This document shows, piece after piece, positions 34,798-45,222 of a stretch of 64,000 nt of DNA; the stretch's first letter is position 1; each line of letters opens with the position of its first letter. A program made the translations under genes and the position numbers. The DNA is taken from assembly GCF_027625995.1 (NCBI RefSeq), contig NZ_CP115396.1, positions 1,302,001 through 1,366,000 of the forward strand, given 5' to 3'. The notes beneath the pieces are model-generated. The model saw only the letters and a list, made by a program, of their open reading frames with translations, was not told the origin of the DNA and searched no databases. The stretch comes from Hymenobacter yonginensis. GTDB taxonomy: Bacteria > Bacteroidota > Bacteroidia > Cytophagales > Hymenobacteraceae.

Positions 34798-34930
34798 ATA
34801 ATGAAGTGAGGCGGTGACAAGCTGCAGGCAGCCGGCGGCGTTTTGATTCCGCCAGCTTCCCGGGGCGTTGTTGTATTCCTCGCTCCATTTGCCCACGACC
34901 GTATTGCTCCGTCACCTGTCACCTCATTCC
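34798..34930. repeat. Relic of the GTGACAGGTGA family in the rsmA leader
   Basis: AATGAAGTGAGGCGGTGACA (34799-34818) on the left and CCGTCACCTGTCACCTCATTCC (about 34908-34929; first 20 shown as CCGTCACCTGTCACCTCATT) on the right are inverted with a 4-base offset. The words are those of the long element at 37392-37622. Confidence 0.6.
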
Positions 34931-36898: not shown

Positions 36899-36917
36899 AG
36901 CTTACCATCACCCTCCC

Positions 36918-37391
36918 ATGGCCACCATCAACTATTATACCGCCGAAGGCCTTCAGAAACTCAAGGACGAACTGCAGGACCTCAAAATCCGTGGCCGCTC
37001 TGAGGCTGCCGAAGCGCTGCGCGAAGCTCGCGACAAAGGCGACCTGAGCGAAAACGCGGAGTATGACGCCGCCAAGGAAGCCCAGGGCCTGCTGGAACTG
37101 AAAATATCGAAGCTCGAAGAAGTGGTCGGCAACGCCCGCATCCTCGACGAAGCCGGCCTCGACCTCACCAAAGTGCTCATCATGAGCAAGGTGAAGCTCA
37201 AGAATCTGAAAAATAACATGGTGCTCGACTACACGCTGGTAGCCGAGGAAGAAGCCAACCTGGCTGCCGGCAAAATCTCCGTAAAGTCGCCCATCGGCAA
37301 AGGCCTGCTGGGCAAGTCGGCCGGCGACAAAGCCGAGATTACCGTGCCCGCCGGCAAGCTGCAGTTCGAAATTTTGGAAATCAGTCGTTAA
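36918..37391 (+). CDS. greA: Transcription elongation factor GreA
   Basis: A 157-residue factor that rescues backtracked RNA polymerase by stimulating RNA cleavage. The ATG at 36918 begins MATINYYTAEGLQKLKDELQ. The coiled-coil tip has the acidic pair in ARDKGDLSENAEYDAAKE, which reaches the polymerase active site. The C-terminal FKBP-like domain ends VPAGKLQFEILEISR. An in-frame ATG at 36846 would run through the leader hairpin and is rejected. The stop is followed at once by a long inverted-repeat element. Confidence 0.97.
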   Translation: MATINYYTAEGLQKLKDELQDLKIRGRSEAAEALREARDKGDLSENAEYDAAKEAQGLLELKISKLEEVVGNARILDEAGLDLTKVLIMSKVKLKNLKNNMVLDYTLVAEEEANLAAGKISVKSPIGKGLLGKSAGDKAEITVPAGKLQFEILEISR

Positions 37392-37622
37392 GGGTGATTT
37401 TGGTGATGGAGTGATGAGGTGAACTGTGACAAGTGACAGGTCACAAGTGAACCGCCCCGCCATCAACCCGTAGAAAGCCAGACGGCGAAGCATCTTGCTT
37501 CGCCGTCTGGCTTTTTGCCTTACTTTGGCCTGACCGACAAAGGCCCTTTTCACCTGTCACGGTTCACCTCACACCTGTCACCTGTCACGGTTCACCTCAT
37601 CACCCCATCACCAAAATCACCA
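37392..37622. repeat. Long inverted-repeat element, GTGACAGGTGAACC family, between greA and the HIT-NuiA gene
   Basis: The left arm starts right after the greA stop (GGTGATTTTGGTGATGGAGT at 37393) and the right arm ends at 37621 with its complement. About 49 bp pair with three mismatches. The inside holds a second, separate hairpin (37474-37516). Related pieces lie at 34798-34930 and 41479-41530, and a short one near 61750-61770. Confidence 0.88.
37474..37516 (+). terminator. Strong terminator inside the repeat
   Basis: AAAGCCAGACGGCGAAGC (37474-37491) pairs perfectly with 37497-37514, followed by TT. It is the likely end of the greA transcript. Confidence 0.88.
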
Positions 37623-37631
37623 CCCACACCA

Positions 37632-38519
37632 ATGGCTTCCATTTTCTCGCGTATTGTGTCGGGCGAGCTGCCCGCGTATAAAGTAGCCGAGGACGACCAG
37701 CATCTGGCGTTTCTCGACATCACGCCGCTGGTGGAAGGCCACACGCTGGTGATTCCGAAACGCGAAATCGACTACATCTTCGATATGCCGGCCGAGGAGC
37801 TGGCGGCCCTGCACCTGTTTGCGCAGCGCGTAGCCAAGGGCGTGCAGGCGGCCGTGCCGTGCCGCCGAATTGGGGTGGCCGTTATCGGGCTGGAGGTGCC
37901 GCACGCCCACATTCACCTGATTCCGATGAACAAGGTGGCGGACATGAACTTCGCCAACCCCAAAATCAAGGTGGCCGAAGACCGAATGCAGGAACTGGCC
38001 GCTGCCATTGCCGCGCAGGTGCCCGCCGCCGTTGGCAGCCGCACTGTAGACGCTCTGGACACCAAAGGTGGCCGCGAAACCGCCGCTGCCAACGAGCCGG
38101 CAGCTTCCGCCACCGGCGCTGCCCCGGCCGACAGCACCACGGCGCAGCTGCAGCAACTCACGAAAGGGCTATTGTTTCTGAGTGAGTCGGATGCGGCGCT
38201 GGAGCCGGTGAGCTACGACGCGCCGGCCGGCCCGCTGACCGATGCGGCGCTGCTGCAGGCCGTAGGGGCCGAAGCCGGCAGCAAGGTGGAAACCCAGGAG
38301 CTGACCCTGTTCCTGCGCAACCACACCGCCGACGACGGTGTGCTCGGCGACCCGGCCCAGGCCAACCGCTTCAAGGCATTGCAGATGTACCTGAAGCAGG
38401 AGCTGCAGGACGTGAAGGTGTACCGCGTGGGCACCGGCCCGCAGGTGCAGGCTTACGCCCTCGGCCGCACCACCAGCGGCAAGCTGGCCGGCTTCAAAAC
38501 CGTGCTGACGGAAACGTAG
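37632..38519 (+). CDS. HIT hydrolase fused to a NuiA-like nuclease inhibitor domain
   Basis: 295 residues from the ATG at 37632; the longer frame only translates the repeat. Residues 1-130 are a HIT domain: MASIFSRIVSGELPAYKVAE, DITPLVEGHTLVIPKRE, and the active-site motif HAHIHLIPM with three histidines, as in nucleoside phosphoramidases. A low-complexity Ala/Thr/Glu linker follows (about 138-172). Residues 175-295 match the NuiA family: LTKGLLFLSESDAALEPVSY, then RFKALQMYLKQELQDVKVYR, VQAYALGRTTSGKLAGFKTV and the C-terminus LTET. NuiA proteins inhibit NucA-type DNA/RNA nucleases; the SES glutamate and the C-terminal Thr that I recall as metal-bridge residues of that inhibitor are both present. 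There is no signal peptide, so it is cytosolic. The fusion is unusual; these are normally separate proteins. Confidence 0.85.
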   Translation: MASIFSRIVSGELPAYKVAEDDQHLAFLDITPLVEGHTLVIPKREIDYIFDMPAEELAALHLFAQRVAKGVQAAVPCRRIGVAVIGLEVPHAHIHLIPMNKVADMNFANPKIKVAEDRMQELAAAIAAQVPAAVGSRTVDALDTKGGRETAAANEPAASATGAAPADSTTAQLQQLTKGLLFLSESDAALEPVSYDAPAGPLTDAALLQAVGAEAGSKVETQELTLFLRNHTADDGVLGDPAQANRFKALQMYLKQELQDVKVYRVGTGPQVQAYALGRTTSGKLAGFKTVLTET

Positions 38520-38524
38520 GAAGT

Positions 38525-38549
38525 GTGGCACGGACTTCAGTCCATAGCC
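38525..38549. repeat. Half copy of the GTGGCACGG element
   Basis: GTGGCACGGACTTCAGTCCA with ATAGCC matches the left arm of the element at 45148-45222 with a few changes and includes GGACTTCAGTCC, an internal palindrome. It lies 6 bp after the HIT-NuiA stop. No right arm is seen. Confidence 0.6.
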
Positions 38550-41478: not shown

Positions 41479-41530
41479 CGTTTACCTGTCACCTGTCACG
41501 GTTCACCTCATCACTTCATCACCCCTTCAC
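41479..41530. repeat. Single arm of the GTGACAGGTGAACC family overlapping the MFS stop
   Basis: On the minus strand this reads GGTGAAGGGGTGATGAAGTG, then ATGAGGTGAACCGTGACAGG, then TGACAGGTAAACGG. It lines up with the arms at 37392-37622. The last codons of the MFS gene (Val-Lys-Gly-stop) are inside it. Confidence 0.75.
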
Positions 41531-43080: not shown

Positions 43081-44520
43081 CTACCGCACCGGGCCCGTGT
43101 CTACCGTTTTCTGCAGACGGGTCTGGGCTTCCAGGGGAAGCTTGCTGAGCAGGTCGAGGCCGGTGGCGGCTTCCAGGGCGTCCACGCTCACGCGGTAGCG
43201 GCTCCAGTCGGGGTCAACGGTTTGGTCGTTGGGGGTGTCGATGGCAATGATGCGGGCCTGGCCGGCGGCAATGCGCTGCAGGTCGTTGGTGCCTTCGGGC
43301 AGCAGCACCAGCAGCTTCCAGACGCGGGCCGGCACCGTCACGCGTCCCTGGTCGATGGTGGTTTTGAGGCCGTTGAGGCCGGTGCCGCCTTTGCCATAGC
43401 ACCCCATCACCACGTACACTTCCTGGCCGCGCTGCACCTGAGCGCGGGTCCATTCCTCGAGGTTGCCCCAGGTGCGCTGGTTGTTGTTGGCCGCCTGCGG
43501 AATCATGTTGGTCATCAGGAAGGTGGCCGAGTTGTCGTCGAGGTCGGTGGTGCGGTCGGCGCTGGGGCAGTTATGACCTTTGTCGAAGCCGGAGCCGGAG
43601 TAGCTGTTGCGCGTGACGGCGTAGAACTGCCGCGGCAACGCCGGGTCGGGGCGGAAGTCATCCTGGCGCGGGGCTGCGCCCATCCAGGCGCGATTGAGGT
43701 GCCAGCTCACCCACGTGGGCGTGCCCCGCTGGGCGTTGTAGCCGATGGTGAACTGGGGCTTGGTGAGCAGGTAGTTGGTGGGGTTGTTGGCGTCGGCGGT
43801 GGCGCCGCTGGGGTTGCCCAGGGCCATGTTGTCGTCGCGGGTATTGGCGGATTGCCGGGGTGGTGGAGTGGGGGATTGGGTGGGTTTGGGGGGCTGGGGC
43901 GCGGAAGGCACGCTGCCGCCCGCCACAGCTGCGCCGCCAGCGGCTTCCAAGGCAATGTCGTCGATGTTGAGGCGGCCGGAGCCGCCGTCGGTTTTGCGGA
44001 TTTCCAGGCGCAGCGGCGCGGGCGTGGGACCGGCCTGGAAGGTGGTGCTGAGCAAGCGCGGGCTTTGCACCCGCACTGGCTGCCCGATACGACGGAACGT
44101 GCGGCCGCCATCCACGCTGCCCCACAGCTCCCAAGTGGCGGCGGCATCCTGCCCGTACAGCGCGCTGCTGACCCGGATGGTGCGCACGCCGGCCGGCGCA
44201 TCGAAGTTCATGCGCACCCGGCCCTTGCCGCGCAGGCGGGCGGCGTGCTCGCCGTGCTTGTGGTCCTGCTCTGAGGAGCCGATCAGGGCGTCTTCAAAGT
44301 ACCACAGCCCCGTGCCCAGCGGCTCAGCCGCGGCCGTGTAGGCGCCTTTGCTGCCCGCCTCAAAGGTTTCAGGAAAGGCGGTGCTCGCCTGTGCCACGCC
44401 GCGGCCGCCCGACTCCACCGGAATAGCCGGAGGCCCCTCGGGCAGTGGCGGGCGGGTAGTCTCGACGGGCGCCTGCGAGCAGGCCAGCAACGGAAGCAAA
44501 AGCAGCGGGAAAAGGCGCAT
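43081..44520 (-). CDS. DNA/RNA non-specific endonuclease (NucA/NUC1 family) lipoprotein
   Basis: About 479 residues from the ATG at 44518-44520. MRLFPLLLLPLLAC is a lipoprotein signal with lipidated Cys14. Residues about 50-195 look like a beta-sandwich (FEDALIGSSEQDHKHGEHAA, then LNIDDIALEA) of the kind that binds sugars or surfaces. A Pro/Ser/Thr linker leads to the nuclease domain (about 245-440). Its signature is GFDKGHNCPSADRT with catalytic His316 (DKGH in place of the common DRGH), followed by NMIPQAANNNQRTWGNLE with the metal-binding Asn and Glu. Such nucleases cut DNA and RNA without sequence preference. The lipid anchor places it on the envelope. A NuiA-like inhibitor domain is encoded about 5 kb away. 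Confidence 0.92.
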   Translation of the reverse strand: MRLFPLLLLPLLACSQAPVETTRPPLPEGPPAIPVESGGRGVAQASTAFPETFEAGSKGAYTAAAEPLGTGLWYFEDALIGSSEQDHKHGEHAARLRGKGRVRMNFDAPAGVRTIRVSSALYGQDAAATWELWGSVDGGRTFRRIGQPVRVQSPRLLSTTFQAGPTPAPLRLEIRKTDGGSGRLNIDDIALEAAGGAAVAGGSVPSAPQPPKPTQSPTPPPRQSANTRDDNMALGNPSGATADANNPTNYLLTKPQFTIGYNAQRGTPTWVSWHLNRAWMGAAPRQDDFRPDPALPRQFYAVTRNSYSGSGFDKGHNCPSADRTTDLDDNSATFLMTNMIPQAANNNQRTWGNLEEWTRAQVQRGQEVYVVMGCYGKGGTGLNGLKTTIDQGRVTVPARVWKLLVLLPEGTNDLQRIAAGQARIIAIDTPNDQTVDPDWSRYRVSVDALEAATGLDLLSKLPLEAQTRLQKTVDTGPVR

Positions 44521-44653
44521 AGCAGCAGAGTAGGGCGGTAGAGAAACGAGGAGTGGCGCGAAGTTTGACACCCGCCTGGTCCGGGAACGAGGACGGGAAG
44601 ATTGCCCCGCGAATCGGCCTGAAAACTACGTGAATCCTTTTATTTCCTTTCCG

Positions 44654-45147: not shown

Positions 45148-45222
45148 GTGGCACGGGCTTTAGTCCGTAGCCCACTGCTGTCCATGGGTAGCGTGTGGGC
45201 TACGGACTAAAGCCCGTGCCAC
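45148..45222. repeat. Perfect 28-bp inverted repeat, GTGGCACGG family
   Basis: Arm 45148-45175 (GTGGCACGGGCTTTAGTCCG and eight more bases) is fully complementary to 45195-45222; the loop is 19 bases. Found between two convergent genes. Related pieces at 38525-38549 and, more distantly, 1849-1868. Confidence 0.92.

Follow-up and report, generated by a model that had tools for sequence, protein, structure and literature searches.

The protein NuiA of Anabaena/Nostoc sp. PCC 7120 (PDB entries 2o3b, 1j57 and 1ktu) inhibits NucA, a nuclease that is directed to the periplasm by its signal peptide, as described in PMC4890671; according to the same source, the supposed functions of nucleases of this type are nutrition and, in some cases, killing. 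NuiA is described in PMC5758888 as a competitive inhibitor bound where DNA binds, and PMC5374557 presents it as an intracellular inhibitor with an experimental pKd of 11.49.

Here we analyse a gene from a stretch of 64,000 nucleotides of Hymenobacter yonginensis (the whole of which is referred to as the window), whose product contains a NuiA domain. This domain shares with Anabaena NuiA the fold, the equivalents of Glu24 and of the C-terminal threonine, and the association with a gene of a NucA-type nuclease. It differs from it in being part of a HIT protein, of which it forms the C-terminal half, and in the replacement of Trp76 by valine. The nuclease in the window, compared with that of the Anabaena system, resembles a lipoprotein and is extended by an additional N-terminal region. 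The role of HIT enzymes in bacteria is poorly understood. With other members of the HIT superfamily (PF01230; the closest solved proteins by sequence are 3p0t and 7mqw) the window protein has in common the length of the domain, the HxHxH motif and alignment over the whole domain; it differs from them in being extended by a linker and by NuiA. Our search of the open literature covered the titles and the beginnings of abstracts of the papers listed, and none of these describes a HIT-NuiA protein.

The HIT-NuiA fusion gene and its retention within one clade

The gene is a single unbroken frame running from ATG to the stop codon, exactly at the coordinates given in Table 1, while the mechanical ORF begins 39 codons further upstream, at a TTG. 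The preliminary description of this DNA had proposed an uninterrupted HIT-linker-NuiA frame, and this is borne out; the motifs that it quoted (HAHIHLIPM, LTKGLLFLSESD, VKVYRVG and KTVLTET) were all found in the translation. Profile searches placed both domains far above the Pfam cut-offs, i.e. PF01230 at residues 11-100 (E 3.6e-18; 66.4 bits against a cut-off of 21.5) and PF07924 at residues 169-295 (E 3.8e-34; 118.2 bits against 22.1; profile positions 3-130 of 130), which confirms the fusion. In PDB sequence searches, residues 1-129 matched HIT proteins (best 3p0t, E 4e-24) and residues 170-295 matched NuiA alone (2o3b and 1j57/1ktu, E 2.4e-11). An AlphaFold2 model computed without templates has pLDDT values mostly of 85-97 in the NuiA part and below 50 in linker residues 129-164; its HIT half is of low confidence, because this domain is represented in the alignment by just two sequences besides the window protein. 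The top solved match of the model in Foldseek was chain B of 2o3b, the inhibitor of the NucA-NuiA complex (E 2.7e-10, TM 0.86 on target).

Table 1. Features of the fusion locus, with positions in the window
Feature	Position	Strand	Basis
hit-nuiA fusion gene, 295 aa	37632..38519	+	ORF, translation, Pfam HIT + NuiA
HIT domain, residues 1-129, HxHxH triad at 91-95	37632..38018	+	Pfam PF01230, PDB sequence matches
Linker, residues about 130-168	38019..38135	+	Ala/Thr/Pro-rich by eye, predicted disordered
NuiA domain, residues 169-295	38136..38516	+	Pfam PF07924, 2o3b alignment, residue counts, fold match
Predicted cognate exported nuclease, PF01223, FDKGH motif	43081..44520	-	Pfam Endonuclease_NS E 6.1e-48
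greA, conserved upstream neighbour	36915..37391	+	Pfam GreA_GreB N and C domains; 20/20 loci
Strong intrinsic-terminator-like hairpin between greA and fusion gene	37472..37516	+	20-pair stem, T-rich tail; consensus scan

The genome nearest to the window is G001, and the fusion occurs in two sibling genera, g1 (120 genomes) and g27 (8), represented by species-level genomes. Among the matches listed, HIT lies within a frame of at least 252 aa in 124 of these 128 genomes, with four exceptions: in G151 and G113 the frames measure 223 and 217, and in G078 and G011 the HIT match is divided into two pieces. All 37 genomes examined from the nearest genus contain NuiA, and the frames that encode it are invariably 252-366 aa long. 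HIT and NuiA sequence occur together in one frame in 85 of the 87 g1 and g27 genomes that were read in detail (84 identified by script and one, G009, by eye); G151 and G113 have them in different frames, and in G078 and G011 the N-terminal part of HIT lies in another frame, with the rest joined to NuiA. The fusion is thus whole in 83 of the 87, its linker varying between 19 and 54 residues across relatives. The frame problems in the four genomes may represent either sequencing errors or real breakage. They are the one observation that could speak for an assembly or sequencing artefact joining two genes, a reading that was rejected, since it is ruled out by the survey of the frame across genomes and deserves practically no credence; a frameshift, considered earlier as a possible source of the fusion, is likewise rejected.

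NuiA was detected in 201 and HIT proteins in all of the 204 genomes of the family (among the matches listed). In the genera g23-g26 (76 genomes), the 24 HIT frames among the matches listed measure 131-173 aa and the longest NuiA frame among them 219 aa; the two are therefore separate genes there. Elsewhere NuiA is rare, occurring in 23 of 395 genomes of a phylum sample (four of these 23 from g1), 9 of 98 genomes in the class of G494, 13 of 301 in the phylum of G618 and 24 of 292 in the phylum of G919. In the phylogeny, the fused NuiA sequences of g1 and g27 group together in a single branch (SH-aLRT 96). The label 'HIT family protein' alone would hide the inhibitor from annotators.

Key residues and selection in the two halves

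In the alignment with 2o3b, the glutamate of the SES motif (E185) is the counterpart of Glu24, and T295 that of the C-terminal Thr135, of Anabaena NuiA, two residues that we take to act at the metal site of the nuclease. Their conservation, claimed previously for the window, extends to the clade: each is kept in 79 of 80 fused rows, composed of 79 distinct relatives and the window. These relatives had been selected for a complete N-terminus and for presence of the HIT string GLEVPHAHIHL; conservation of HIT among them therefore holds by construction. The penultimate glutamate, nearly invariant in other NuiA, is kept in 72 rows and replaced in eight. The position of Trp76, which is conserved in other NuiA and lies outside the Pfam definition of membership, is occupied by V237 in the window and by valine in 74 of the 80 rows. 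Of 88 NuiA from elsewhere, 87 have Trp at this position; most of them were fetched with a pattern holding the Glu24 motif, so their Glu24 is present by construction, which does not apply to their Trp and Thr.

The absence of Trp76 and the eight losses of the penultimate glutamate, together with the retention of the fusion in G135, which has no PF01223 match, could be taken as signs that the NuiA domain has been repurposed as a scaffold or regulator and that inhibition of the nuclease has been lost. We consider this improbable. The Trp76 loop also lacks Trp in all 20 unfused NuiA examined from sister genera, 17 of which are encoded beside nuclease genes, and the residue was therefore probably lost before the fusion was formed. 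Moreover, Glu24 and the C-terminal Thr have been kept, a nuclease orthologue has been retained and gene order is conserved.

The fusion protein is under purifying selection. Median pairwise dN/dS values (Nei-Gojobori; the pairs are not independent) were 0.136 for HIT, 0.499 for the linker and 0.377 for NuiA at dS 0.3-0.6, and 0.098, 0.616 and 0.323, respectively, at dS 0.6-1.0. In the ten closest pairs the corresponding values were 0.079, 0.148 and 0.076, HIT and NuiA being alike.

The HIT motif of the window protein is HAHIH, and HxHxH occurs in 84 of the 84 relatives counted as same-frame, which were taken without the prefilter on the HIT string. Since the window HIT did not reach any NCBIfam subfamily cut-off (best 54 bits against 130), its subfamily is left unassigned; the score for the PRK10687 purine nucleoside phosphoramidase equivalog was 34.8 bits, with a cut-off of 206. 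In nearly every genome of the fused clade this domain is the sole close match of its kind.

The nuclease gene and the neighbourhood of the fusion

Upstream of the fusion gene, the window encodes an M17 aminopeptidase, an rRNA adenine dimethylase (rsmA), a 2-hydroxyacid dehydrogenase and greA. Among 20 fused loci, greA and HIT are present in 20, rsmA in 19, the dehydrogenase in 19 and the aminopeptidase in 18. Genes for an M28 peptidase, an AI-2E transporter and an MFS transporter follow downstream, and then the PF01223 nuclease gene in convergent orientation. A scan for promoters gave no hit immediately before the fusion gene, which is separated from greA by the terminator-like hairpin; steady expression of the fusion is therefore an assumption.

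Two repeated sequences were noticed in the vicinity. A repeat based on TCACCTGTCAC occurs at window positions 34912, 37426-37443, 37550-37588 and 41482-41499, with one copy just upstream of the fusion gene (8 matches with at most one mismatch, against 0.64 expected), and a pair of 55-nt copies at 37558 and 41469 is 85% identical. A palindrome-like element, GGCACGGACTTCAGTCCATAGCC, is located just 3' of the fusion gene (38527-38549) and again at 45150-45172 and 45198-45220 (3 copies with at most three mismatches, against 0 expected).

The start of the nuclease gene is taken at an internal ATG (44520); the open frame extends to a GTG at 44571. The N-terminus of the protein is lipoprotein-like by eye, and the protein has an extra N-terminal region; a Pfam search gave no match for the N-terminal region encoded at 43890-44517 (-). 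Nuclease frames are 464-715 aa long in 62 fused-clade loci, compared with 277-424 aa beside standalone nuiA in the sister genera, and N-terminal additions thus appear to have been acquired within one clade by both partners, HIT-NuiA and the nuclease. A strict lipobox pattern is present in 40 of the 62 fused-clade nucleases. Of eight of the 22 failures, inspected by eye, seven appear to contain a hydrophobic stretch with AC or GC at its end; in the remaining one the frame start is over-extended.

The preliminary description had connected the fusion with this nuclease, and the connection is strengthened by two observations, namely synteny throughout the clade and the joint absence of NuiA and nucleases within the family. 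In 68 of 80 fused loci (the four broken ones counted in), the nuclease gene is downstream and convergent, at a distance of 633-6487 bp (median 3512). Two of these 68 loci, those of G151 and G006, have the nuclease sequence divided between two frames. In ten of the other 12 loci, an orthologue with 73-80% identity (present in G078 as fragments with 80 and 67%) lies on the same contig, also convergent, roughly 10-52 kb further downstream. In G018 the orthologue is on another contig, and in G135 there is none. In sister genera the standalone nuiA adjoins a nuclease gene in 17 of 20 loci, with a gap of 5-224 bp. No HIT orthologue was found beside nuiA in these 20 loci, and greA is represented near it by two weak greA-like matches (31-32%).

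PF01223 was found in 196 of the 204 genomes of the family (among the matches listed). All three genomes without NuiA (G068, G157 and G163) also lack PF01223, a coincidence with a hypergeometric chance of 4e-5, computed by hand and ignoring kinship. NuiA without a PF01223 match occurs in five genomes of the family (G135, G188, G192, G208 and G209), the one fused case being G135, an assembly of 340 contigs. Among the matches listed, two or more PF01223 matches (fragments counted apart) are present in 115 and one NuiA match in 118 of the 120 g1 genomes. A plain housekeeping gene is thus the source of the sole NuiA-type protein in nearly every genome of this genus, most of which have several NucA-type nucleases, and one fused inhibitor may serve several of these enzymes.

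Specific coevolution of NuiA and the nuclease was considered and rejected. The rank correlation of their distances, given HIT, rsmA and the dehydrogenase, was 0.29 in the 44 of 62 loci with usable rsmA and dehydrogenase, and none of 1000 permutations was as high; the control pairs rsmA-nuclease and NuiA-dehydrogenase reach 0.33, however, and the value therefore contains no specific signal. In a run with other alignment settings and spans (55 loci), nuclease correlations were near zero everywhere, rsmA included, for which we presume an alignment fault.

We consider it reasonably probable that the protein represents a working cytosolic NuiA immunity domain against an exported nuclease, carried by a housekeeping HIT enzyme. 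By analogy with Anabaena NuiA, the domain would act as a competitive inhibitor of the NucA-type nuclease exported by the same genome, and perhaps of its paralogues too, shielding cellular DNA and RNA from nuclease molecules that fold before export or return to the cell. The HIT domain keeps its catalytic triad; the two-domain protein would be cytosolic and, because HIT proteins dimerise, the inhibitor is likely to be presented in pairs. In a Hymenobacter-like clade, an ancestral pair of nuiA and nuclease genes would have moved behind the greA-hit locus, and nuiA would have been joined to the 3' end of hit, giving rise to the fusion a single time. This order of domains leaves the C-terminus of NuiA free, as the interface with the nuclease presumably requires. 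The main advantage may have been one of dosage, i.e. the inhibitor would be produced whenever the housekeeping HIT protein is produced. Several observations speak against this reading: the replacement of Trp76 and, in eight rows, of the penultimate glutamate, the five genomes that have NuiA without a PF01223 match, the hairpin and the negative promoter scan at the start of the fusion gene, the distance correlation that is no higher than in control pairs, and the low dN/dS of the linker in the ten closest pairs, where HIT and NuiA are alike.

A second HIT-NuiA fusion and other partners of NuiA

A scan of architectures among the best 80 of 185 relatives and in samples of phyla revealed another HIT-NuiA protein in Candidatus Thermochlorobacter (genus g123), where it is present in 3 of 3 genomes as frames of 300-352 aa with Pfam matches to HIT and NuiA (L178; L160, L161, L163). 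The order is the same as in the window protein, i.e. HIT followed by NuiA with a free C-terminus, but the HIT domain belongs to a branch resembling Ap4A phosphorylase and ATP adenylyltransferase, Trp76 is kept and the origin is separate. The best solved matches of this HIT domain are 6af2, a HIT domain-containing protein (E 1.3e-38), and the Ap4A phosphorylase 3ano (E 3.2e-37), and its NCBIfam score as ATP adenylyltransferase is 165.3 bits, below the cut-off of 290. Its NuiA domain groups with unfused NuiA of its own family, f47 (SH-aLRT 93), and a single clade of all HIT-fused NuiA was rejected by the AU test (p 0.007; 0.00693), which was based on a rapidly built tree of 131 columns that contains long branches. 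One origin for all HIT-NuiA fusions was therefore discarded. In the related GBChlB bin (L179, same genome as L162), the two genes are unfused, the TGA of hit overlapping the ATG of nuiA (ATGA). This genome also has a PF01223 gene, and in all three fused Thermochlorobacter genomes such a gene lies on another contig than the fusion.

A similar merger thus apparently arose separately in distant bacteria, which points to a possible use of the combination more than to an accident. It is possible, in line with the sensing or clearing of nuclease products suggested in the preliminary description, that HIT is itself part of the immunity mechanism, binding or hydrolysing a nucleotide made when the nuclease leaks; candidate ligands would be 5'-nucleotides, adenylated ends or stress nucleotides of the Ap4A type, and HIT would either clear damage products or bind a ligand that gates the inhibitor. 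The second fusion, involving a different branch of HIT, makes such a functional link more credible, and the overlapping genes of the GBChlB relative and the HIT triad, intact in every same-frame relative, are consistent with it. Two separate fusions with HIT are also unlikely under random choice of partners, although this is an argument made after the fact and from few events. Against a functional link, the linker is long, variable and predicted to be disordered, so that any crosstalk would have to proceed via a ligand or through proximity, and NuiA has also been fused to proteins that are not nucleotide enzymes, namely a gamma-carbonic-anhydrase-like protein (L247) and pentapeptide repeats (L284). 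These other partners favour the simpler reading of HIT as a carrier, and on balance we regard a coupling of HIT catalysis to immunity as rather unlikely. Equally tentative, and somewhat doubtful in our opinion, is the more general proposal of a recurrent design, according to which HIT was joined to NuiA at least twice because its catalysis or nucleotide binding aids protection from nucleases, for example when a nucleotide damage signal gates the inhibitor or when HIT clears adducts arising from leaked nuclease. In any case, a pairing that evolved twice constitutes a natural test of whether HIT enzymes protect against nucleic-acid damage.

The same diversity of partners between lineages, and the existence of an unfused, overlapping hit/nuiA pair, would also suit a neutral origin, in which neighbouring genes were joined without benefit and the halves work separately. 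In the Hymenobacter-like clade this seems unlikely, considering that the fusion persists in a set of 128 species-level genomes, in which four cases are broken or split, and that at larger distances the linker changes more rapidly than HIT or NuiA. Moreover, nuiA is not located beside hit or greA orthologues in the 20 sister-genus loci examined, and joining would therefore have needed a relocation. An immunity domain carried by a HIT enzyme is our preferred reading.

The hexapeptide protein L247, from Candidatus Viridilinea mediisalina, scores 131.7 bits as an NCBIfam gamma carbonic anhydrase, below the cut-off of 250. As in the window, NuiA is the C-terminal domain of an enzyme-like protein, and a nuclease gene is located 10 bp downstream; the partner domain, in contrast, is unrelated to HIT. 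L284 (1452-3443), from the cyanobacterial sample, has pentapeptide repeats followed by two NuiA stretches. Every fusion seen ends in a NuiA domain (in the tandem protein L284 a further copy is internal), as would be expected if the C-terminus of NuiA sits in the active site of the nuclease.

Unusual forms of NuiA were also noticed outside these fusions. In the cyanobacterial sample, L285, L286, L287 and L288 contain two diverged NuiA-like stretches in tandem, and some of these proteins are without the usual C-terminal Thr. In the Chloroflexota sample, the NuiA proteins L278, L279 and L280 have a putative signal peptide, judged by eye, and are possibly exported inhibitors.
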